Source of the DNA: Dictyostelium firmibasis
Taxonomy: Eukaryota > Evosea > Eumycetozoa > Dictyosteliales > Dictyosteliaceae
Direction: 5' to 3'
NCBI GenBank assembly: GCA_036169595.1
Contig: CM069769.1
Span: forward strand, 4,250,001-4,277,925
Length of the DNA stretch: 27,925 nt
Shown: one piece after another, positions 3,655 through 19,675 of the stretch
Layout: every line of letters starts with the position of its first letter
Numbering within the stretch: the first letter of the stretch is position 1
Program-made: the position numbers and the translations under genes
The notes under the pieces: generated by a model
The model's input: only the letters and a program-made list of their open reading frames with translations
Databases searched by the model: none
Told to the model about the DNA's origin: nothing

Positions 3655-3790
3655 TTATTGATTAAAAACATCTAAAACACTCATATAACCCAAGAAGATA
3701 CCTTATCATAATGAAAGGGCCTGTTGTTCTGTTATGACATGGTTATTTTGGAGTGTTGATAAGGCTTTTCAAAACTCCGCAAGATCTAAA
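3655..3790 (+). ncRNA. Candidate structured non-coding RNA
   Basis: This is a more GC-balanced island in nearly pure A/T DNA, without a useful open frame. It can fold into one long stem. AACACTC (3676-3682) pairs with GAGTGTT (3751-3757), ATAACC (3685-3690) with GGTTAT (3741-3746), and TCATAA (3706-3711) with TTATGA (3732-3737), giving 19 perfect pairs around a 20-nt loop (3712-3731). A U-rich word followed by GG (TTATTTTGG, 3743-3751) loosely resembles an Sm site but overlaps the stem. A DUSE-like element lies about 65 bp upstream. I see no convincing C/D or H/ACA boxes and cannot assign it to a known class. Ends are approximate. Confidence 0.35.
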
Positions 3791-3946
3791 AAAATAAAAA
3801 AATAAAAAAAATATTTTTTTAATTTAAATTTTAATTTTTTTTATTTTTATTTTTAAATTAATTTTTTCCCGGGTTATATAACAAATAAAATCGAATGCAC
3901 CAGATTATTGGTCATTTTAATATGAACTTATCAATACTAAAAACCG

Positions 3947-8031: not shown

Positions 8032-9033
8032 ATGTCTACCACCGATAATAATAACCACGCTAGTAGCTCTACCGAAAATAATTCTAATTCTTATGAAACT
8101 AGAATGAAATCGCTTGAGGATCAAATCTCCAATCTCTCATTAGCTTTTACCAGATATATGAAAGAGCCAATCAGAGAGTCGTACGGTAACTCTGATAATC
8201 AACGTTCTAATGATGAATCTGAAACTGAGAATGAACAAGGTGATGATGAATCTATCGATCCAGTCGATGTTCCAACTGATTATCAACTATCAGAGTCATT
8301 GCTTGCTAACTACAAACATTTAATCAATAATCAAGGTTTGTTAGTTGAAGAAAAATGTATCCTTAAGAAGAACGAAATCGCTGATGTTAACAAAATCTTT
8401 TGCTTTCCATCTAACTTCCAAGTGAATGTAGCTCCATTCGGTACTCCAGAAGGTATATCTGCTTCATCGAATCTCAAGAATAATGATACAGACTTGTACA
8501 TTGTCGAAAAGAGAATCAATGATATTTTGAAACCAATACTTTTACTTTCAAGTATGATATCATCCGATAAAACTGATATCGATACCGAACTCTTAGGTTA
8601 CTTAGCTGACTCGTCAATTCAATTAGTTGTTAGTGCTCAAGCAACATTAGCTCGTGTTCGTCGTAACAACATCTCAAAAGAAATCTACGGTTCCGAAGTG
8701 GTTCAACCAATCAAGATCAAAGACACTCCAAAGATGTTTGATGATACCGAATCTGAACGTGTAAGAAAGTTAGCAAAGTCAATTAGAAAGAACAATGAAG
8801 CCAAACAATCATTGTTAAAAGTTAACAATCAATCAAAGTCAAACTTTAAGAAATCAACCAACACAGGTGGTAATAACACTACTGGAAGTAGTAGTTCGAA
8901 TAACAAGTCCAGTAGTGGGAGTAATGGCCGATCCAATAACTTCAATGGATCCCAAAGTAATGCTGCATCAGGTAGCAGCAATACCAAGTCTGGAAACGGT
9001 ACCAATTATCGTTTTCAGAAGAACAAGAAGTAA
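8032..9033 (+). CDS. DIRS-1 gag-like protein (ORF1), copy A
   Basis: 333 aa from a true ATG in the AAATAATG context. A short Asn/Ser-rich head leads into a heptad-like segment (ETRMKSLEDQISNLSLAF, about residues 23-40) that could multimerise. An acidic stretch follows, then a conserved central region ending in YGSEVVQPIKIKDTPKMF near 240, and finally a low-complexity Ser/Gly/Asn tail with basic residues. No zinc knuckle is visible. By position and by what is known of DIRS-1, this is the putative structural protein. The copy in D is nearly identical, whereas copy B carries a clearly diverged version. Confidence 0.8.
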   Translation: MSTTDNNNHASSSTENNSNSYETRMKSLEDQISNLSLAFTRYMKEPIRESYGNSDNQRSNDESETENEQGDDESIDPVDVPTDYQLSESLLANYKHLINNQGLLVEEKCILKKNEIADVNKIFCFPSNFQVNVAPFGTPEGISASSNLKNNDTDLYIVEKRINDILKPILLLSSMISSDKTDIDTELLGYLADSSIQLVVSAQATLARVRRNNISKEIYGSEVVQPIKIKDTPKMFDDTESERVRKLAKSIRKNNEAKQSLLKVNNQSKSNFKKSTNTGGNNTTGSSSSNNKSSSGSNGRSNNFNGSQSNAASGSSNTKSGNGTNYRFQKNKK

Positions 9034-11953
9034 ACTTACCAGTAGGTGGACGTCTCGTCCACTTCAAACAAGTTTGGAAAGAATTGGGTCTTCCAAACTT
9101 TTGTCAAGAAGTAGTAAACGGATTAAAGGTTCCACTACTTTCAAACTTCAAACCGATGCTGAACCCAATTCCGATTTCAATTCCAGAGGGTCCGAAATCA
9201 GATTGTATCACAAACGAAGTACAAGATTTATTAAAAGACAATGCAATAGAACAGGTACTTCCAAACCGTCACTCCCAACTCGTTTTTTACTCCAACGTGT
9301 TTACGGTTCCAAAAGCTGGAACGAATTTACATCGTCCAGTACTAGATCTAAAAAGGTTAAACCTTTTTATCAAAAATCAATCATTCAAGATGGAAGGTCT
9401 AAAGAATCTGTCTTCAATGGTAAAACAAGGTTACTACATGGTAAAACTCGATATCAAGAAAGCTTATCTCCATGTATTAGTCGACGAAAGTTATCGAGAT
9501 TTATTCCGATTCGTTTGGAAAGGAACTCATTACAGATGGAGAACAATGCCATTCGGGTTATCGTCAGCTCCTCGAATCTTTACAATGTTAATGAGACCAG
9601 TACTCCGAATGCTGAGAGATATCCACATTTCCGTAATCGCCTACTTAGACGATCTTCTAATCGTTGGTTCAACAAAAGAAGAATGTTTAAACAACCTCAA
9701 CCAAACAATGAATCTGTTAGTCAAACTCGGATTCAAGTTAAATCTAGAAAAGAGTGTTCTCGAGCCAACTCAATCAATAACGTTTCTAGGATTACAAATC
9801 GATTCAATATCAATGAAGCTACTTGTTCCAAAAGAAAAGAAGAAGAGTATCATCAAAGATATCAGGAACTTTCTAAAACTCGAAACTTGTACTCTAAGAA
9901 AGTTAGCTGGTTTAAAAGGAAAACTAATTGCATTGAAAGATGCAGTAATACCATTCCGTTTGTACACTCGTCAAACAAACAAGTTTCATTGTCAAAGTCT
10001 GAAACTAGCAAATGGAAATTGGGATCAATCATTTCCAATTTCTCAAGATGTCAAGAAAGAAATTTCAAATTGGTTAACTCTCTTAAACCAATGGAATGGA
10101 AAAGAAATAAGTCTGTTTCCAAGTTACGATTATGTTCTAACAACAGATGCATCAGAATCAGGTGCAGGTGCAACTTTAATGAAAGAAAACAAAGTCATCA
10201 AAACTTGGTCGTTCCAGTGGTCAGAAGTCCAATCAAACATGTCATCGAATCGTCGAGAAATGCTTGCTCTACTAATGGCATTTCAAACTCTATGTCGGAA
10301 GTTGAACAACTGCAATCTAAAGATTCAAACCGACAACACAACAACTCTCTCGTATGTCAATCGTCAAGGTGGTCAGATTCAAGATCTATCGACTCTCTTC
10401 GAACAACTTTGGAAACAATGTCTCAAGAAGAAAATCAATCTGTTTGGGGAACACATTCCAGGATTCTTCAATGTCAAAGCCGATCACCTCAGTCGTCTAT
10501 CAGAGATGAATCACAAATCATCCAAGCCGATCAAGAGTTACAACTGGCAACTCAAAAAAGAAGTGTTCAATCGAATTCAACTCCAATTCGGTCAAATTCA
10601 AATGGATCTGTTTGCTTCACACTTCAACCACCAAACAGTCAATTACTCAACCATGAAAATGAATGCTCTACAACTCGATTGGAGTCAATGGAATCAATGT
10701 CTAGCGTTCCCACCTCCAATACTTTTGCCTTCTGTGATGGAGAAGATGAACTTATTGAGTTCGAAGATGGTTTCTATAATACTGATCTTCCCGATTTGGA
10801 GATCAGCAACTTGGTATCCGATGATTCAAGCTCAAGTTCCTCGTCATCATCGCCATCTGTTTCCTCAAGTACTGGGTACGTTCCAAGAAGTATTGACAAA
10901 GGAATCGATAGAGTCAATACCAATTCAAATTCAGCAACGATGGAAACTGGGGATTATTCGACTTTCCAATCTCATGTAAAGTCAATAATTAAAACAAGTA
11001 AATCGAGTACTTCGAATTTGTTTATGAACTCTTGGCAACCATCAACCTTAAAGGTCTATGATTCAAATTACTCAAAGTTCCATTTCTTTTGTATTTTAAA
11101 TCGTTTGGATCCATCAAAGATTACTCTGGTAGTTTTTATGGACTATTTGACCTATTTATTCAAGCTACAACCTCCGTTGGCTTATTCAACAATTAACAGT
11201 CATCGTTCAATGCTTAATCAGTTACTCATTCTTAGGAATCAATCTGAAATAGTTAATGATCCATTCATATCAAGAATAATGACTGGTATTCACAAGTTAC
11301 GTCCGAGTAACTCAAGGTATAATGAAATCTGGAATGCAAATCAAGTTTTCAAATACTTATCTACAATCAACGTTTATCCAAAGTTTACATACTCTGTCCT
11401 TCTACATAAGACTTTTGTTCTTTGTAAAATGTTTGGTTTAGCAAGGTCATCTGACTTGGTCAAATGGTCTTACAAGAATTTAATAATCACTGAACACTCA
11501 ATTAAAGCTCCTGTTATCAATTCAAAAGAACAAAGGAATACAAAGAATGCTGATATTTCCATTTTAGAATTAACTTCACTAGATGAATCCAATGCAAGTA
11601 TTTGTCCGGTTATCCATCTTTCAAGATACCTCAAACACTCTGAACAAAGAAGAACTGTTTCTTCTGGTGATTCAGTATTCATTCTCCGTGATGGTAGTCC
11701 AGTTTCAGTCGAATATATAAACTCTATAGTTTTATCAATACTTTCAAAATCAGGTATTGATATTACAAAGTTCAAATCTCACTCTACTCGTTCCGCTATG
11801 GCTTCTCTCTTGTTGTCCAGTAATGTTCCATTCCATGTGGTCAAGAAACTCGGTCGTTGGAAATCAAATGATACAGTTGATAACTTTTATGACAAGAAAA
11901 TCATTGGTGAAAAATCTGGTGGTTTCTTAAATAATGTAGTCCAACTTTCATAA
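8867..11953 (+). CDS. DIRS-1 tyrosine recombinase ORF, copy A (overlaps the RT ORF)
   Basis: An open frame of 1028 codons; the first codon counted is GTG, so the true start is uncertain. The last ~330 residues are a tyrosine recombinase: a core-binding-like N-terminal part (from about NSWQPSTLKVYDSNYSKF), Arg860 in GLARSSDL, His972 and Arg975 in HSTRSA, the LGRWKSNDT motif and the nucleophile Tyr1008 in NFYDKK. It would join the circular DNA intermediate to the target. The first two thirds are Arg/Ser-rich and lie over the RT gene in another frame. Near-complete overlap of these two ORFs is a known trait of DIRS-1, but how much of the upstream part is translated is unclear. Confidence 0.8.
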   Translation: MVITLLEVVVRITSPVVGVMADPITSMDPKVMLHQVAAIPSLETVPIIVFRRTRSKLTSRWTSRPLQTSLERIGSSKLLSRSSKRIKGSTTFKLQTDAEPNSDFNSRGSEIRLYHKRSTRFIKRQCNRTGTSKPSLPTRFLLQRVYGSKSWNEFTSSSTRSKKVKPFYQKSIIQDGRSKESVFNGKTRLLHGKTRYQESLSPCISRRKLSRFIPIRLERNSLQMENNAIRVIVSSSNLYNVNETSTPNAERYPHFRNRLLRRSSNRWFNKRRMFKQPQPNNESVSQTRIQVKSRKECSRANSINNVSRITNRFNINEATCSKRKEEEYHQRYQELSKTRNLYSKKVSWFKRKTNCIERCSNTIPFVHSSNKQVSLSKSETSKWKLGSIISNFSRCQERNFKLVNSLKPMEWKRNKSVSKLRLCSNNRCIRIRCRCNFNERKQSHQNLVVPVVRSPIKHVIESSRNACSTNGISNSMSEVEQLQSKDSNRQHNNSLVCQSSRWSDSRSIDSLRTTLETMSQEENQSVWGTHSRILQCQSRSPQSSIRDESQIIQADQELQLATQKRSVQSNSTPIRSNSNGSVCFTLQPPNSQLLNHENECSTTRLESMESMSSVPTSNTFAFCDGEDELIEFEDGFYNTDLPDLEISNLVSDDSSSSSSSSSPSVSSSTGYVPRSIDKGIDRVNTNSNSATMETGDYSTFQSHVKSIIKTSKSSTSNLFMNSWQPSTLKVYDSNYSKFHFFCILNRLDPSKITLVVFMDYLTYLFKLQPPLAYSTINSHRSMLNQLLILRNQSEIVNDPFISRIMTGIHKLRPSNSRYNEIWNANQVFKYLSTINVYPKFTYSVLLHKTFVLCKMFGLARSSDLVKWSYKNLIITEHSIKAPVINSKEQRNTKNADISILELTSLDESNASICPVIHLSRYLKHSEQRRTVSSGDSVFILRDGSPVSVEYINSIVLSILSKSGIDITKFKSHSTRSAMASLLLSSNVPFHVVKKLGRWKSNDTVDNFYDKKIIGEKSGGFLNNVVQLS
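9084..10979 (+). CDS. DIRS-1 reverse transcriptase / RNase H / methylase-like protein, copy A
   Basis: 631 codons as listed. The first is TTG and the frame is open upstream into the end of gag (PVGGRLVHFKQVWKELGLP), so the real start is earlier. The RT carries the YLDDLLIVGS catalytic motif at residue ~187, preceded by the KLDIKKAYLHVLVD and MPFGLSSAPRIF motifs. RNase H follows with TTDASESGAG (Asp355), SNRREMLAL, IQTDNTTTLSYVN and ADHLSR. The C-terminal ~150 residues (MDLFASHFNHQ, AFPPPILLPSV, PIWRSATWYP) fit the DNA adenine methylase-like domain described for DIRS elements. The protein copies element RNA into DNA. Confidence 0.85.
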   Translation: MGLPNFCQEVVNGLKVPLLSNFKPMLNPIPISIPEGPKSDCITNEVQDLLKDNAIEQVLPNRHSQLVFYSNVFTVPKAGTNLHRPVLDLKRLNLFIKNQSFKMEGLKNLSSMVKQGYYMVKLDIKKAYLHVLVDESYRDLFRFVWKGTHYRWRTMPFGLSSAPRIFTMLMRPVLRMLRDIHISVIAYLDDLLIVGSTKEECLNNLNQTMNLLVKLGFKLNLEKSVLEPTQSITFLGLQIDSISMKLLVPKEKKKSIIKDIRNFLKLETCTLRKLAGLKGKLIALKDAVIPFRLYTRQTNKFHCQSLKLANGNWDQSFPISQDVKKEISNWLTLLNQWNGKEISLFPSYDYVLTTDASESGAGATLMKENKVIKTWSFQWSEVQSNMSSNRREMLALLMAFQTLCRKLNNCNLKIQTDNTTTLSYVNRQGGQIQDLSTLFEQLWKQCLKKKINLFGEHIPGFFNVKADHLSRLSEMNHKSSKPIKSYNWQLKKEVFNRIQLQFGQIQMDLFASHFNHQTVNYSTMKMNALQLDWSQWNQCLAFPPPILLPSVMEKMNLLSSKMVSIILIFPIWRSATWYPMIQAQVPRHHRHLFPQVLGTFQEVLTKESIESIPIQIQQRWKLGIIRLSNLM

Positions 11954-12069: not shown

Positions 12070-12361
12070 ATAAATCAAATTGTTTTCAATATTTAGTGCC
12101 ACTATTTATACTGTTTTTACTTTCTGAAAAATTTCTCAAAACTCAAAAAAATAGGTGCGTGACACGTGGCAACTTTTTTCAAACTCGAAATTTTTCATTT
12201 TTTCAATAATTTTTTCGAGCTAAAATATCTCCAGAAAATTCTCTTGAATTTCTCTGAAAATTATCTTAAATATTTGGGAATTTCAAATAAATAAATATAT
12301 TCATAAATTTAAATATATATATTTAATATAAAATATAATTTAATTATTTAAATTTTTAATT
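12070..12361 (-). repeat. Right ITR of DIRS copy A
   Basis: Inverted partner of 7620-7886 with the longer outer extension (12310-12361). It ends at TTTTTAATT where the body of copy B resumes. Confidence 0.85.
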
Positions 12362-12597
12362 AAGCATTGAACGATGACTGTTAATTGTTGAATAAGCCAA
12401 CGGAGGTTGTAGCTTGAATAAATAGGTCAAATAGTCCATAAAAACTACCAAAGTAATCTTTGATGGATCCAAACGATTCAAAATACAAAAGAAATGGAAC
12501 TTTGAGTAGTTTGAATCATAGACCTTTAAGGTTGATGGCTGCCAAGAGTTCATAAACAAATTCGAAGTACTCGATTTACTTGTTTTAATTATTGACT

Positions 12598-15132
12598 TTA
12601 CATGAGATTGGAAAGTCGAATAATCCCCAGTTTCCATCGTTGCTGAATTTGAATTGGTATTGACTCTATCGATTCTTTTGTCAATACTTCTTGAAACGTA
12701 CCCAGTACTTGAGGAAACAGATGGCGATGATGACGAGGAACTTGAGCTTGAATCATCGGATACCAAGTTGCTGATCTCCATATCGGGAAGATCAGTATTA
12801 TAGAAACCATCTTCGAACTCAATAAGTTCATCTTCTCCATCACAGAAGGCAAAAGTATTGGAGGTGGGAACGCTAGGCATTGATTCCACTGACTCCAATC
12901 GAGTTGTAGAGCATTCATTTTCATGGTTGAGTAATTGATTGTTTGATGGTTGAAGTGTGAAGCAAACAGATCCATTTGAATTTGACCGAATTGAAGTTGA
13001 ATTCGATTGAACACTTCTTTCTTGAGTTGCCAGTTGTAACTCTTGATCGGCTTGGATGATTTGTGATTCATCTCTGATAGACGACTGAGGTGATCGGCTT
13101 TGACATTGAAGAATCCTGGAATGTGTTCCCCGATCAGATTGATTTTCTTCTTGAGACATTGTTTCCAGAGCTGTTCGAAGAGAATCGATAGATCTTGAAT
13201 CTGACCACCTTGGCGATTGACATACGAGAGAGTTGTTGTGTTGTCAGTTTGAATCTTTAGATTGCAGTTGTTCAACTTCCGACATAGAGTTTGAAATGCC
13301 ATTAGTAGAGCAAGCATTTCTCGACGGTTCGATGACATGTTTGATTGGACTTCTGACCACTGGAACGACCAAGTTTTGATGACTTTGTTGTCTTTCATTA
13401 AAGTTGCACCTGCACCTGATTCTGATGCATCTGTTGTTAGAACATAGTCGTAACTTGGAAACAGACTTATTTCTTTTCCATTCCATTGGTTTAAGAGAGT
13501 TAACCAATTTGAAATTTCTTTCTTGACATCTTGAGAAATTGGAAATGATTGATCCCAATTTCCATTTGCTAGTTTCAGACTTTGACAATGAAACTTGTTT
13601 GTTTGACGAGTGTATAAACGGAATGGTATTACTGCATCTTTCAATGCAATCAGTTTTCCTTTTAAACCAGCTAACTTTCTTAGAGTACAAGTTTCGAGTT
13701 TTTGAAAGTTCCTGATATCTTTGATGATACTCTTCTTCTTTTCTTTTGGAACAAGTAGCTTCATTGATATTGAATCGATTTGTAATCCTAGAAATGTTAT
13801 TGATTGAGTTGGCTCGAGAACACTCTTTTCTAGATTTAACTTGAATCCGAGTTTGACTAACAGATTCATTGTTTGGTTGAGGTTGTTTAAACATTCTTCC
13901 TTTGTTGAACCAACGATTAGAAGATCGTCTAAGTAGGCGATTACGGAAATGTTGATATCTCTTAGCATTCGGAGTACTGGTCTCATTAACATTGTAAAGA
14001 TTCGAGGAGCTGACGATAACCCGAATGGCATTGTTCTCCATCTGTAATGAGTTCCTTTCCAAACGAATCGGAATAAATCTCGATAACTTTCGTCGACTAA
14101 AATATGGAGATAAGCTTTCTTGATATCGAGTTTTACCATGTAGTAACCTTGTTTTACCATCGAAGATAGATTCTTTAGACCTTCCATCTTGAATGATTGG
14201 TTTTTGATAAAAAGGTTTAACCTCTTTAGATCTAGTACTGGACGATGTAAATTTGTTCCAGCTTTTGGAACCGTAAACACGTTGGAGTAAAAAACGAGTT
14301 GGGAGTGACGGTTTGGAAGTACTTGTTCTATTGCATTGTCTTTTAATAAATCTTGTACTTCGTTTGTGATACAATCTGATTTCTCCGGGACAAGCAATTT
14401 CATTGATATTGAATCGATTTCTAAGCCGAGAAATGTTATTGTTTGAGTTGGTTGTAAAACACTCTTTTCTAGATTTAATTTGAATCCCAGTTTTAATAAA
14501 AGGTCCATTGTTTGGTTGAGGTTGAGAGTACATTCTTCTTTTGTTGAACCAACAATTAGAAGATCGTCCAAGTAAGCGATTACTGATACATTGATTTCTC
14601 TTAATCTTTGGAGTACTGGTCTCATTAACATTGTGAAGACTCGAGGAGCTGTTGATAATCCGAATGGCATCGTTTTCCAACGATAATGAATTCCTTTCCA
14701 AACGAACCGAAATAGGTCTCTGAATCTTTCGTCCACTAAGATATGAAGATAGGCTTTCTTGATATCGAGTTTTACCATGTAATAACCTTGTTTCAACATT
14801 GATGAGAGGTTCTTTATTCCTTCCATCTTGAATGATTGATTGCTGATGAACTTGTTTAATCTTTTTAAATCTAGTACTGGACGAAGTAAATTCGTTCCAG
14901 CTTTTGGAACCGTAAACACGTTGGAGTAAAAAACGAGTTTTGAATAACGGTTTGGAAGTACTTGCTCTATAGCATCGTCTAGTAGCAATTCTTGTACTTC
15001 GTTTGTGATGCAATCCGTTTTCGGACCATCTGACATCGAGATCGGAATTGGGTTCAGCATCGGTTTGAAGTTTGGAAGTAGATGAATCTTTAGACCATTC
15101 ACTACTTCTTGACAAAAGTTTGGAAGACCCAA
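12598..15132 (-). CDS. Mosaic DIRS RT/RNase H reading frame, copy B
   Basis: One long open frame of 844 codons, compared with 631 in copies A and D. It contains two RT palm regions, each with a YLDDLLIVGS motif: the first of the diverged subfamily and the second of the common type, followed by a single RNase H and methylase-like region. Whether such a double-palm protein would work is doubtful. It is best read as a fossil of recombination or template switching between two DIRS copies. Confidence 0.75.
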   Translation of the reverse strand: MGLPNFCQEVVNGLKIHLLPNFKPMLNPIPISMSDGPKTDCITNEVQELLLDDAIEQVLPNRYSKLVFYSNVFTVPKAGTNLLRPVLDLKRLNKFISNQSFKMEGIKNLSSMLKQGYYMVKLDIKKAYLHILVDERFRDLFRFVWKGIHYRWKTMPFGLSTAPRVFTMLMRPVLQRLREINVSVIAYLDDLLIVGSTKEECTLNLNQTMDLLLKLGFKLNLEKSVLQPTQTITFLGLEIDSISMKLLVPEKSDCITNEVQDLLKDNAIEQVLPNRHSQLVFYSNVFTVPKAGTNLHRPVLDLKRLNLFIKNQSFKMEGLKNLSSMVKQGYYMVKLDIKKAYLHILVDESYRDLFRFVWKGTHYRWRTMPFGLSSAPRIFTMLMRPVLRMLRDINISVIAYLDDLLIVGSTKEECLNNLNQTMNLLVKLGFKLNLEKSVLEPTQSITFLGLQIDSISMKLLVPKEKKKSIIKDIRNFQKLETCTLRKLAGLKGKLIALKDAVIPFRLYTRQTNKFHCQSLKLANGNWDQSFPISQDVKKEISNWLTLLNQWNGKEISLFPSYDYVLTTDASESGAGATLMKDNKVIKTWSFQWSEVQSNMSSNRREMLALLMAFQTLCRKLNNCNLKIQTDNTTTLSYVNRQGGQIQDLSILFEQLWKQCLKKKINLIGEHIPGFFNVKADHLSRLSEMNHKSSKPIKSYNWQLKKEVFNRIQLQFGQIQMDLFASHFNHQTINYSTMKMNALQLDWSQWNQCLAFPPPILLPSVMEKMNLLSSKMVSIILIFPIWRSATWYPMIQAQVPRHHRHLFPQVLGTFQEVLTKESIESIPIQIQQRWKLGIIRLSNLM

Positions 15133-15182
15133 TTCTTTCCAAACTTGTTTGAAGTGGACGAGACGTCCACCTACCGGTAAGT

Positions 15183-16235
15183 TTACTTCTTGTTCTTCGG
15201 AAAACGGTAGTTGTTGTTGGAACCGTTTCCAGACTTGGTATTGTTGCTACCTGCTGCAACAGTACTTTGGGATCCATTGAAGTTGTTGGATCGGCCATTA
15301 CTCCCACTATTGGATTTATTATTACTACTGTTTCCATTAGTGTTATTACCACTTGAGTTGTTATTATTGTTATTATTGTTGTTATTATTAAATGATTTCT
15401 TAAATCTTGATTTTGATTGATAACTACTTTTTGATAATGATTGTTTTGTTTCATTATTCTTTCTGATTACCTTTGATAACTTTCTTATACGTTCAGTTTC
15501 AGTTTCATCAAATAATTTTGGAGTATCCTTTATCTTGATTGGTTGAACGACTTCAGAACCATATATTTCTTTTGATATGTTGTTACGACGAACACGACTT
15601 AATGATGCTTGTGCATTAATAGTTAAAAGAATAGTAGAATCAGCTAAATAACTTAATAGTTCAGTATCGACTTTAGAATTATCAGTAGATGATAACATGT
15701 TTGATATCAAGAGGATAGGTTTCAATATATCATTGATTCTTTTTTCGACAATGAATAGATCAGAATCATTATTCTTGAGATGAGATGAGGCAGTAATACC
15801 ATCTGGAGTACCGAATGGAGCAACATTAACTTGAAAATTTGATGGAAAGCAAAAAGTTTTATTAAAATCAGAAATATCGTTCTTTTTGAGGATACATTGT
15901 TCTTCAACAAGTAAACCTTGATTGTTTAATAAATGTTTATATTCATTAAACAATGAATCAGATAATTGATATTCAGTTGGTATATCGACATCATTATTTG
16001 AATCATCATCATTATCTTCATTCTCTATATCTGAATTGTTATTATTCTCTTGATTTTTACTTATATTATTGTTAGATGTTATTGGTTCTTTAACGTATCT
16101 ACTAAATGTTAATGTTAATTTATTTATTTGATCTTCAATTGATTTCATTCTAATATCCATTAAATTTGTGTTATTATCTGTAGATGAACTGCCATAGCTT
16201 TGATCATTAGAGTTATTATTAACAGTGGTGTTCAT
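15183..16235 (-). CDS. Diverged DIRS gag-like protein, copy B
   Basis: 350 aa from a true ATG. Collinear with the 333-aa gag of copies A and D, sharing RRNNISKEIYGSEVVQPIKI and KCILKK/QCILKK-type blocks, but with many substitutions throughout, a different Asn-rich head and an extended poly-Asn tract near residues 282-292. The degree of divergence marks a separate DIRS subfamily. The plus-strand Leu-rich frame at 15211-15420 is only its antisense shadow. Confidence 0.75.
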   Translation of the reverse strand: MNTTVNNNSNDQSYGSSSTDNNTNLMDIRMKSIEDQINKLTLTFSRYVKEPITSNNNISKNQENNNNSDIENEDNDDDSNNDVDIPTEYQLSDSLFNEYKHLLNNQGLLVEEQCILKKNDISDFNKTFCFPSNFQVNVAPFGTPDGITASSHLKNNDSDLFIVEKRINDILKPILLISNMLSSTDNSKVDTELLSYLADSTILLTINAQASLSRVRRNNISKEIYGSEVVQPIKIKDTPKLFDETETERIRKLSKVIRKNNETKQSLSKSSYQSKSRFKKSFNNNNNNNNNNNSSGNNTNGNSSNNKSNSGSNGRSNNFNGSQSTVAAGSNNTKSGNGSNNNYRFPKNKK

Positions 16236-16239
16236 TATT

Positions 16240-16631
16240 TTATTTAATTTAAAATATTGTATGAGTTAGTATAATATTAAATTAAAATATATAAAAATAT
16301 TGTTATAAATTAATTATTTGTATAAAAATTGTGTGAATGTATCTTAAACATATAGGAGGAATTCCCAAATAAAATAAATCAAATTGTAAAAGTATCTGTG
16401 TGGTATTTATAATGAAATGCATTCGTCTGTAAAAATTTCAACAAAAAAAAAAAAAAAAAAAAAAATTTTATTTTTCCCCCACTTTTTGGCGCACTTATTT
16501 GCGCGGGAAATTTTAACACACCCCACACCACACTTTGCGCGAAATTTTTAAAAATTTAAAAATTATCTTAAATATTTGGGAATAATCAAATAAATAAATG
16601 TATTCATAATATAAATATATATATGATAATA
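16240..16631 (-). promoter_or_regulatory. Left ITR/promoter of the diverged DIRS subfamily with E2F-like sites
   Basis: The outer ~70 bp (16563-16631) match the common DIRS left end in its GATTATTCCC variant. The interior is unrelated to the common ITR and lacks its CCACGTGTC block. Instead it holds three words resembling E2F sites: TTTTTGGCGC (16483-16492), TTTGCGCGGGAAA (16498-16510) and TTTGCGCGAAA (16534-16544). A long A run (16442-16465) lies beside them. A cell-cycle-linked promoter is an inference. Confidence 0.5.
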
Positions 16632-16988
16632 GGGCGCGAAGATAGCACTATGAGAGGCTAGCAAGAAAAGAGCTGAAAAGGAGATTAAGAGGCTCTGAAA
16701 AAAGAAACCGCATAGGCCTAAAAGCATAATGCCAATCTCAATCATTCTGGTAATAACGATGATCTTCTGTTTGCTAAATCGATCTGCCAATGTTCCTCAA
16801 ACTGATGCGAGTAGCAAAAATGGAATGACGTAGATAATGCCTGTCAAGGAGAGAGTCAAACTATTTGCTCTATTCCCTTCAATCATAATACAGAAATAGA
16901 TCAACAAAAGTTTAAAGATATTATCATTCAAAGCGCCTATAAATTGGCAGATATTGAGAAAGCGAAAGGATTTCCAATTCGATAGCAT
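16632..16988 (-). pseudogene. lplT: LplT/YgeD-like MFS transporter, N-terminal fragment (bacterial)
   Basis: From ATG 16988 the frame encodes about 119 residues of a major facilitator protein: a first membrane helix with FLNICQFIGALNDNIFKLL (typical of the LplT family, where GA-NDN is conserved), a second helix ending IPFLLLASV, the loop motif GTLADRFSKQK (the MFS D-R signature between helices 2 and 3), and helices 3 and 4 up to HSAIFAP. The family flips lysophospholipids or acts as an efflux-type carrier in the inner membrane. An in-frame TGA (16797-16799) stands where the family has Trp before GTLADR. The remaining ~300 residues are lost at the DIRS junction. There is no strong Shine-Dalgarno sequence (GAAGAAAAAAA precedes the ATG). 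Confidence 0.65.
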
Positions 16989-17212
16989 TTTTTTTCTTCA
17001 ATTGTATAGTTCGAACTCATATAACGTCTCAGGTATGCTCTCTTGTATATTCTGCTATTATCAATAAAAACTCTTCTCAATCGGGACTATATCATGGCCG
17101 AGAGGAGCAAAAAAACTGTATCATACTATTCATAAGAAATTCCCTGAAGAAAAATGCATGAATATTGAGTAGATTGAAGTTTGATGAGAGAAATTCCGTT
17201 CCACCTTAGTAA
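16989..17212. other. Degenerate spacer between the transporter and recC fragments
   Basis: 224 bp of bacterial-like composition with stops in all frames. In one plus frame, weakly recC-like words appear (for example KKLYHTIHKKFPEEKCMN) between stops, so this may be decayed recC sequence. RecC homologues would need roughly 750 bp of coding sequence here, so part of the gene has been deleted. Confidence 0.4.
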
Positions 17213-18669
17213 TTCTCTTTCCTCCCAATCTCAGATGCTTATAAAGACTATAGAGCGCCTTATCAAGAGATGCTCATTCCTGAATATCTCAATACCTCTT
17301 TAATTACATTAGAGACGCATGCCTCTCTTCTTCATGTAATTCAAGCTGATATCGTCTCTTTTGTCTTAAAAAGAGAGATAAAGGAGACTATTGAAAATGA
17401 AAATTAGGAGTCTCTCTATTTCGTTTTAGCTCCTACCATTATCCAAGAGGTTCAAGCATTTCGAAAGTACCTTCTTCAAAAGAGATCTAGCACGGTCAAA
17501 ATTGGATATATTTTTGTACTTGTTCCATCGATTGATGAGTATAGAGATGCCTTTATGCAGGTCTTTCATAGCGATCAAAAGGCTATTCTTCAGTTTTGGC
17601 CAAAGTCAAAAATGGAGATGAGTGCCTATGAGTCTGAAAGTGAGCTTCTCTCTTGGATCTCTCTTCTTTTTGGTCTTCTTGGAATGAAGAGAAAGCAGAC
17701 GAATCTGAGAAAGGGCAGCTATGCATTGATGAACCTTGCTTTTCACCCGCTCACACTTCGAGCTCTCTTTGCTGAAGAGGCAGAGAGCTGTGAGGGTGAA
17801 TTTCGGAGGTATTTAGAAAAATTGGGACTCGATTGGTATATCTCTTCCGCACATCTCGCACGCGAAATGGAAGCCAAAGGAATCAATCTCATCTATGAAA
17901 GCGAAATAGGCGATTTTTCTTCAATTAAAGAGAAAAAAATAGGGGAGCTGATCGGTCAGTCTGCCGATGGAGAGTCAGCAACTCTCTTGCATCGAGAGAT
18001 GAGTAATGCCTTCATCTCACTTGCCCTATTTTTTGAATCTTGTGACGCTCTCTGGACTCTTCCGATTTCTCCAGATAGGGTACAAAAAATTGAGGAGTGG
18101 ATTTCTCCTCTTCAACAAACAGAGAGCCTTTTCCCCCTATTGGAAGAGGCTATAGAGATGGATGATTTAGAGGCTTTTGAGGTTGTCATCTCTCGATTTG
18201 TAGATTTAAGTCACCGTTTTCCAGAAGTGAAAATGAGCTTTGATTGGTTTACAGACTCCTTTCAGCGAGAGCTATTTGAGGAGATTTCCAATAGGCAGCA
18301 GCTTCGTCGATTTACTGGACATATCATCATCAGCGATAGAGAGAGCTTCGATTCGATTCCATGTGCGGGGGTTGCCATTTTAGGCGCAGGACACGATCAG
18401 TTCCCTCACGTAACTCGTGAGCATCTTCTCTCCCATTTAACGAAGATTGCACCAACTGTTCTTCATGATCCGTCTAGCATCGATAAGCAGCTCTTCTTAG
18501 AACAACTGCTCTCTAGCTCTTCTTGGTTCTACTGCAGTGCGCTCTCGGCAAGTATAGAAAAAGAGGGGTTGCACCATTTCTCTCCTCTGGTTCGAGACCT
18601 TATTCGCTATGTCGATCAAAACTTCATCTATCGGGATGGAGCTGCTTTTTCACAAAAAAATGTCTCCTT
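17213..18669 (+). pseudogene. recC: recC (exodeoxyribonuclease V gamma subunit), internal fragment, bacterial
   Basis: About 485 codons in one frame with an in-frame TAG at 17405-17407; the longest open part starts at ATG 17555. The sequence lines up with E. coli RecC from about residue 250 to 730 as I recall it: LLHVIQADI (RecC LLHNIQSDI), a block ending EVQAFRKYLLQ (REVEVLHDRLL), VLVPSIDEYRDAFMQVF (VMVADIDSYSPFIQAVF), LEKLGLDWYIS, and later HIIISDRESFDSIPCAGVA with LGAGHDQFP and DKQLFLEQLLSSSSW. RecC recognises Chi and partners RecB and RecD in double-strand break repair. The N-terminal helicase-like part and the C-terminal RecB-binding part are absent. Trp is encoded by TGG throughout, so TGA is not a Trp codon in the source genome. 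Confidence 0.75.
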
Positions 18670-19386
18670 TTATATTATCATATATATATTTAAATTTATG
18701 AATACATTTATTTATTTGATTATTCCCAAATATTTAAGATAATTTTCAGAGAAATTCAAATGAATTTTCTGGAGGTTTTTTAGCTCGAAAAAATTATTGA
18801 AAAATGAAAAATTTCGAGTTTGAAAAAAGTTGCCACGTGTCACGCACCTATTTTTTTGAGTTTTGCGAAATTTTTCAGAAAGTAAAAACAGTATAAATAG
18901 TGGCACTAAACATTGAAAACAATTTGATTTATTTTATTTGGGAATTCCTCCTATATATATTTAAGATACACACACATAATTTATACAAATAATTAAAAAA
19001 AAAAAAAAAAAATTCTTTTATTAATTTAATACTTTTTATCTATCTCTATAAAAATAATTTTAGATATCAATAAAATAATGTCTACCACCGATAATAATAA
19101 CCACGCTAGTAGCTCTACCGAAAATAATTCTTATGAAACTAGAATGAAATCACTTGAGGATCAAATCTCCAATCTCTCATTAGCTTTTACAAGATATATG
19201 AAAGAGCCAATCAGAGAGTCGTACGGTAACTCTGATAATCAACGTTCTAATGATGAATCTGAAACTGAGAATGAACAAGGTGATGATGAATCTATCGATC
19301 CAGTCGATGTTCCAACTGATTATCAACTATCAGAGTCATTGCTTGCTAACTACAAACATTTAATCAATAATCAAGGTTTGTTAGTT
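18670..19386 (+). mobile_element. DIRS-1: DIRS-1 copy C, first part (left ITR and start of gag)
   Basis: Left ITR 18670-18932, then leader and the first ~103 codons of gag, at which point copy D is inserted. The element resumes at 24124. The ITR is a distinct variant: GATTATTCCC near the outer end (as in copy B), a GGAGGTTTTTTAGC stretch, and a run of five A where copy A has six and D eight. It differs from C's own right ITR at several of these sites. Confidence 0.85.
19078..19386 (+). pseudogene. DIRS-1 gag-like protein, N-terminal part, copy C
   Basis: A true ATG and the same N-terminal sequence as the gag of copies A and D, with minor differences in the Asn/Ser head. It is interrupted after the HLINNQGLLV codons by the insertion of copy D; the remainder of the gene lies at 24124-24813. 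Confidence 0.8.
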
Positions 19387-19675
19387 AAAAATTTAATAAT
19401 TAAATTATATTTTATATTAAATATATATATTTAAATTTATGAATACATTTATTTATTTGAAATTCCCAAATATTTAAGATAATTTTCAGAGAAATTCAAG
19501 AGAATTTTCTGGAGATATTTTAGCTCGAAAAAATTATTGAAAAAAAATGAAAAATTTCGAGTTTGAAAAAAGTTGCCACGTGTCACGCACCTATTTTTTT
19601 GAGTTTTGCGAAATTTTTCAGAAAGTAAAAACAGTATAAATAGTGGCACTAAATATTGAAAACAATTTGATTTAT
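19387..19675 (+). repeat. Right ITR of DIRS copy D
   Basis: Inverted match to 23860-24123 plus the longer outer extension characteristic of the right end. It carries the TTAATAATT variant. Confidence 0.85.

Follow-up and report, generated by a model that had tools for sequence, protein, structure and literature searches.

The segment at positions 16632-18669 of the stretch analyzed here is one remnant of about 18.7 kb of chlamydial DNA, pieces of which lie among DIRS retrotransposons on several contigs of the Dictyostelium firmibasis assembly. The pieces are of chlamydial origin, go back to one donor stretch, exist in many copies, are decaying and have been interrupted by transposons. As the best explanation we propose, with a probability of roughly 0.92, a single capture of endosymbiont chromosome DNA that has spread between DIRS arrays and is now decaying in the nucleus. 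The stretch analyzed (the window) comprises the terminal 27,925 nucleotides of contig C5 (4,250,001-4,277,925; C5 total 4,277,925 bp) of strain TNS-C-14, the one strain covered by the assembly (31.46 Mb, 12 contigs). The C5 sequence was inspected from 4,080,001 to its end, of which 4245001-4250000 is given as N.

According to the passages on assembly and annotation in the genome report (PMC11193728), the TNS-C-14 genome was assembled with Flye from Nanopore reads and polished with Illumina reads. Mean coverages of 199x (long-read) and 540x (short-read) are given there, the coverage, calculated per 2.5-kb interval, is stated to be constant genome-wide, contigs of bacterial origin and contigs below 50x were discarded, and the annotation was generated by MAKER from assembled transcripts and D. 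discoideum proteins. The same source locates DIRS1 clusters at 4.5-4.8 Mb on chromosome 1 and terminally on chromosomes 2 to 5. The strings 'chlamyd' and 'centromer' occur 0 times each in its main text. In Dictyostelium, DIRS1 elements serve as centromeres, as stated in the relevant part of PMC12324515. Since DIRS arrays are difficult to assemble, the order of pieces in the assembly may be wrong in places.

The segment and its surroundings in the window comprise the following features:

12334-16631, minus strand: DIRS element adjoining the segment by its left terminus (RT, RNase H, Dam-like domain).
16632-18669, no strand assigned: chlamydial segment, one remnant of the ~18.7-kb stretch (genome DNA search, tetranucleotide scan).
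16632-16988, minus strand: 5' part of lplT (lysophospholipid transporter), broken, assigned via the longer C5 copy.
17184-18669, plus strand: recC, broken, assigned by the family match of a frame and by copy alignment.
17270-19422, plus strand: public gene model RB653_007972 (P0001), 521 aa, spanning the right bacteria-DIRS junction.
18670-19409, plus strand: truncated DIRS whose left terminus abuts the segment, with an ORF without Pfam family.

The original prediction, made from the window alone, had placed the segment between two DIRS left termini with sharp borders, and this was borne out with coordinates correct within about 3 bp. On the left, the DIRS terminus ends at 16631 and bacterial DNA starts at 16632, and on the right the bacterial DNA ends at about 18667-18669 and is followed by the other DIRS terminus (from ~18670). 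Bacterial DNA is joined in this way to host chromosomal DNA on both sides, and at several loci in the assembly. In the copies at C5:4140 kb and on C6 the bacterial sequence continues uninterrupted across both positions, so that the borders in the window are not the edges of the capture. The remnant in the window would rather have been cut at both ends by the two DIRS elements.

The flanking elements can be classified as DIRS retrotransposons by their predicted RT, RNase H and methyltransferase-like domains and by a tyrosine recombinase, the last of which is found in the neighboring copy. Pfam places RT, RNase H and the Dam-like domain of the left neighbor at 12601-15132 and the tyrosine recombinase domain in the next DIRS copy at 8867-11950. 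The first 391 bases of the truncated right element have at least 43 matches in the genome, itself included (best 40 of 181 candidates scored). The proposed residence of the segment inside a DIRS cluster is supported. The two termini at the segment are inverted copies of each other (97% over 74 bp) but belong to two separate elements, and similar sequence was seen by eye at both ends of single DIRS elements. Despite the 97% identity of its terminus, the body of the left element (12334-16631) is, in the stretches that align, only about 70% identical to the right element and to the other DIRS copies of the window.

A bacterial base composition had also been claimed for the segment, which holds for its tetranucleotides and not for its GC content. 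A tetranucleotide scan separates the segment from DIRS, the model having been trained on the C5 blocks described below and also marking weak patches of 500-750 bp elsewhere. The GC content of the segment (about 0.34-0.44) overlaps that of DIRS coding DNA (up to about 0.41), and GC alone is therefore no argument for foreign origin. One further region on C5 (4195001-4195751, L024) combines a GC content of 0.43 with tetranucleotides of bacterial type. Its 114-aa frame does not match the transposons of the window, and the region is possibly a second foreign fragment.

The predicted gene content, fragments of an LplT/YgeD-like transporter gene and of recC in divergent order, is supported by family matches of the segment and of the longer C5 copies. 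In the longer C5 copy, the transporter part of lplT matches PRK08633 (LplT-acyltransferase fusion) with an E value of 4e-64. The recC frame at 17555-18670 (372 aa) matches the recC family TIGR01450 with an E value of 7e-6, which is weak by itself, and has no Pfam match above cut-off; its identity gains from recB and recD, which adjoin it on C5. A protein database search with the recC fragment returned the window's own gene model RB653_007972 as the sole relative, and no match to the fragment was found in two chlamydial genomes.

Elsewhere on C5, the bacterial DNA occupies three blocks:

C5 about 4121755-4126960: block A, bacterial.
C5 about 4137660-4145478: block B, bacterial.
C5 about 4150190-4154652: block C, bacterial.

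The total of ~18.7 kb, about nine times the 2-kb piece in the window, includes two recC stretches that block B lacks and C6 retains. Blocks A and B meet inside recB, which indicates one donor stretch; the gap between them measures about 10.7 kb and carries short inverted repeats at its ends, and what we take by eye to be a helicase motif lies at their meeting point. Blocks B and C are separated by a DIRS of 4709 bp. Ten ORFs of the C5 blocks were scanned against Pfam and NCBIfam. Matches were obtained for RecD in block A (TIGR01447, E 1e-80), for RecB in two pieces (TIGR00609), for RecC and lplT, and for a calcineurin-type phosphatase (PF00149), while four of the ten ORFs had no family in either collection. 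One of these four lies at the expected middle of recB, two have no assigned identity, and one, of 433 aa, is termed porin-like here after a relative that bears the name 'putative porin'. The expectation of a 2-kb insert was thus right as regards bacterial DNA inside a DIRS cluster and wrong as regards a single insert, since the segment is one of many remnants of the ~18.7-kb stretch distributed over half of the contigs.

On C5, both outer ends of the chlamydial blocks are flanked by a 287-bp LTR-like repeat with TG...CA ends (C5:4121450-4121736 and C5:4154653-4154938, in opposite orientation), which is frequent in the clusters. In block C, about 110-118 bp (L020, about 3729-3845) are absent from those copies on C2, C3 and C1 that cross this point, and 45 bp of this extra sequence match C4:157921-157965. 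The porin-like gene (C5:4150573-4151874, L020:573-1874, minus strand) has an open frame of 433 aa, whereas recB, recC, recD and lplT are broken on C5, and matches of 99% on C1 and C2 cover it.

The donor was identified through two predicted proteins with close matches, RecD and the porin-like protein. RecD of block A was searched against a protein database, the 7,998 candidates sharing most words being scored, and its best match was P0002, 'MAG: AAA family ATPase [Chlamydia sp.]' (84% over 98%), the next match being at 47%. The porin-like protein matched P0122 best (89% over 100%, on a contig of 1,543,817 bp; next 55%), and of its 58 matches the three with an organism in their name are Chlamydiales (2) and Parachlamydiaceae (1). 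In a RecD tree of 34 rows, the D. firmibasis sequence groups with P0002 (support 100/100) inside Chlamydiota, and the 23 rows of the chlamydial side split from 11 other bacteria, one labeled Klebsiella, with support 99/95. The chlamydial side consists of five named Chlamydiota, two Parachlamydiales MAGs, the query and 15 rows without taxon label; all rows were chosen by hand from the protein-search matches and from a RecD profile search of contigs, which supplied outgroups and in which other bacteria dominate the matches listed. Among 232 Chlamydiota genomes, 227 contain a RecD match and none a close one, the best-scoring being 38% identical and the highest identity among the matches listed being 46% over part of the protein.

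The proposed chlamydial origin and an intracellular type of donor are supported by the family matches, both protein matches and the tree. Judged by sequence, the segment falls into an identifiable lineage of intracellular bacteria. For three relatives, the longest contigs given with the RecD match and with the porin-like match are identical in size (23,166, 26,593 and 39,788 bp), and the two genes are therefore probably close together there as well; for a fourth relative the contig given with both proteins (1,489,984 bp) is too long to be informative. Chlamydia-like endosymbionts with genomes described as 'complete, circular 1.5 Mbp' occur in Dictyostelium isolates, as the pertinent part of PMC12324515 states, and the donor was probably a relative of those living in Dictyostelium today.

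A bacterium grown as food could also have left its DNA in the culture, and the TNS-C-14 amoebae were indeed fed E. coli 281, according to the culture description in PMC11193728. No blastn match to the window segment was found in 5,426 E. coli genomes or in 72,556 plasmid records, and RecD falls in Chlamydiota, which, unless the food strain contained unrelated DNA, leaves contamination by a food bacterium a practically negligible probability. A plasmid as the source of the segment was likewise rejected on the plasmid records.

DNA searches of the genome with the window segment, block A, block B (in two queries) and block C located chlamydial pieces on C1, C2, C3, C5, C6 and C7, that is, on 6 of the 12 contigs; the search with the window segment by itself returned further places on C1, C5 and C6. 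As each search scored the best candidates only, the following list of copies is a lower bound:

Block A: C1:4729999-4733077; C1:4737821-4738548; C7:70635-71921; C5:4084079-4085191.
Block B: the window; C6:34932-40449 (in pieces); C1:4590283-4591775 (partly inverted); C1:4722460-4725596 (in pieces); C1:4522574-4523037; C2:4953592-4954055.
Block C: C2:4954054-4956346; C2:4969181-4971309; C1:4591773-4593656; C3:4859653-4861058; C1:4541756-4546859 (in pieces).

All of these copies sit in regions with DIRS elements, and the other matches of the block queries were DIRS ends, the ~287-bp LTR-like repeat and further repeats at the query edges. The copies on C2, C3 and C1 that reach the outer end of block C break off at one common bacterial position, C5:4154653; on C5 and C2 the LTR-like repeat begins there. 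This position may be either an edge of the capture or the site of an early LTR insertion.

The association with DIRS raises the question of whether the elements themselves picked up the bacterial DNA and carried it along, composite DIRS-bacterial units then having moved as transposons. Pieces ending exactly at DIRS termini (both ends in the window, C1:4733077, C7:70635 and C1:4722460) would fit such carriage. However, the bacterial position at the DIRS borders varies between copies, other borders consist of the LTR-like repeat or of a DNA-transposon-type end, and one DIRS lies between two adjoining bacterial positions. All three point to insertion into bacterial DNA rather than carriage by DIRS, which we regard as an unlikely origin of the distribution.

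To follow the history of the copies, five copies of the window stretch were aligned. The window differs from the C5:4140 kb copy at 7 of 1590 sites, from C6 at 23 of 2037, from C1:4723 kb at 15 of 1222 and from C1:4522 kb at 5 of 464, and C6 differs from C1:4723 kb at 29 of 1910 sites; one pair of copies has 60 aligned sites only, and its 2 differences are too few to weigh. Divergence ranges from 0.4 to 1.5%, and all pairs with more than 400 aligned sites other than the window and C5:4140 kb lie at 1.1-1.5%. Three lesions are common to the window and the C5:4140 kb copy. A premature stop in lplT (16797-16799) is absent in C6 and lies outside the part covered by the C1 copies. About 760 bp of recC are gone at 17249/17250, in a deletion whose ends match over 5 bp, and are retained in C6 and, for the part covered, in C1:4723 kb. 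A premature stop in recC (17405-17407) is absent in C6 and in both C1 copies. The shared lesions are thus all between two copies on the same contig, C5.

Private lesions comprise stops in the C5:4140 kb and C6 copies, a deletion of 443 bp in the C5:4140 kb copy and one of 277 alignment columns in C1:4723 kb. RecD of block A carries one frameshift and one stop, neither of which is present in the partial recD copy at C5:4084605-4085225, where the only stop occurs where the frame exits the bacterial sequence. On C1, a block B match (4590606-4591775, reaching C5:4145479) runs with a 3-bp overlap into a block C match (4591773-4593656, starting from C5:4150189). This continuity over C1:4590606-4593656, as seen in the match coordinates, represents a state without the 4709-bp DIRS of C5. 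The stretch therefore shows stops, a frameshift, deletions and transposon insertions, as in decaying non-coding DNA, with the open porin-like ORF as the exception.

A combination of shared and private lesions is expected for duplicated nuclear DNA and not for a live symbiont or a single misjoin. This bears on the possibility that the assembly misjoined DNA from a living chlamydial symbiont of the culture into the DIRS arrays. Chlamydia-like endosymbionts are known in Dictyostelium isolates, as PMC12324515 states in the part concerned, repeat arrays are prone to misassembly, and bacterial contigs were removed, as the assembly passages of PMC11193728 record. Yet a live symbiont should contribute one intact chromosome, whereas the copies found here are several, have diverged and carry private as well as shared stops and deletions; transposons sit inside the bacterial genes, the stretches examined hold pieces from one ~18.7-kb stretch only, and the C1 matches are unbroken where C5 has a DIRS. 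We consider such a chimera highly improbable. The divergence of 0.4-1.5%, the pattern of lesions, the unbroken state on C1 and the lack of E. coli matches together argue for old nuclear DNA rather than contamination or food. The constant coverage stated in the genome report, and its removal of bacterial contigs, also count in favor of nuclear residence.

Copies differing by up to 1.5% might also go back to several captures, in which different chromosomes took up this chlamydial region independently. This is scarcely plausible, as all pieces found derive from one stretch and have DIRS elements around them, and derived lesions are common to some copies, though those seen concern two copies of the same contig.

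A single capture with later spread would thus proceed as follows. In the D. firmibasis lineage, the nucleus would have taken up at least ~18.7 kb of chromosomal DNA from a Chlamydia-like endosymbiont, presumably when bacteria lysed within the cell and their DNA was joined in by end-joining repair. This DNA would have come to lie in a DIRS cluster, which is presumed to be the centromere. Judging from the distribution of the pieces, exchange between DIRS clusters of different chromosomes may then have copied parts of it, after which the copies acquired the shared and private lesions seen today, namely deletions, stop codons and insertions of transposons. The remnant in the window is most likely without protein function and may persist because the array is silenced and additional DNA there is of little cost. 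A point against is the porin-like ORF, which is still open although a purely neutral block would not need it to be.

The public gene model RB653_007972 fuses chlamydial recC pieces (17270-18538) to a piece of a DIRS-type ORF (19036-19422), so that a public D. firmibasis protein record combines a bacterial pseudogene with retrotransposon sequence. It may be an annotation artefact or a real chimeric transcript, and the model may be purely predicted. There is a slim chance that the chlamydial DNA is a working part of the centromeric or heterochromatic arrays, transcribed together with DIRS and feeding the small-RNA pool reported for the clusters. The crossing of the bacteria-DIRS junction by RB653_007972 would fit such a function. 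If it were true, the host would pass on a source of RNA that matches a lineage of symbionts still infecting Dictyostelium.

Nuclear endosymbiont DNA is known in animals, for example as Wolbachia inserts in insects and nematodes. Like the DNA described here, these inserts are large multi-gene fragments of an obligate intracellular bacterium, mostly decayed and sometimes multi-copy. In D. firmibasis, by contrast, the donor is chlamydial and the host a social amoeba, which is haploid and has no segregated germ line; the copies found are located in clusters of retrotransposons on several chromosomes. The Chlamydia-like endosymbionts of Dictyostelium described in PMC12324515 are likely kin of the donor, but their genomes are those of free symbionts, and integration into the host genome is not mentioned in the part of that paper concerned with them. 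The DIRS-1 clusters treated in PMC11193728 and PMC12324515 are arrays of the same kind, near chromosome ends and considered centromeric, and the sections of these papers on the clusters make no mention of bacterial DNA there. Transfers of chlamydial genes into algae and plants (PMC2490706, relevant part) likewise lead from a chlamydial donor to a eukaryotic nucleus, but concern ancient single genes, whereas a contiguous, decaying block is found here. In a literature search that mostly did not reach subscription journals, no title or abstract opening reported that DIRS clusters or the nucleus of a dictyostelid contain chlamydial DNA, and no large recent symbiont-to-nucleus transfer from a chlamydial donor to a free-living protist was found. 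While nuclear endosymbiont DNA as such is already known, a chlamydial fragment spread over several centromere-type retrotransposon arrays of a protist therefore appears to be new.

Since probable kin of the donor live in Dictyostelium isolates, the host is a laboratory organism and several copies of differing divergence lie on different chromosomes, the case makes three questions testable: how often symbiont DNA enters the amoeba nucleus, how DNA is exchanged between the DIRS clusters of different chromosomes, where the bacterial block can serve as a natural tracer because the repeats around it are so much alike, and whether small RNAs silence foreign DNA that lies in such arrays. The stretch represents the fossil of an infection within the host genome, preserved in retrotransposon-rich, probably centromeric regions.
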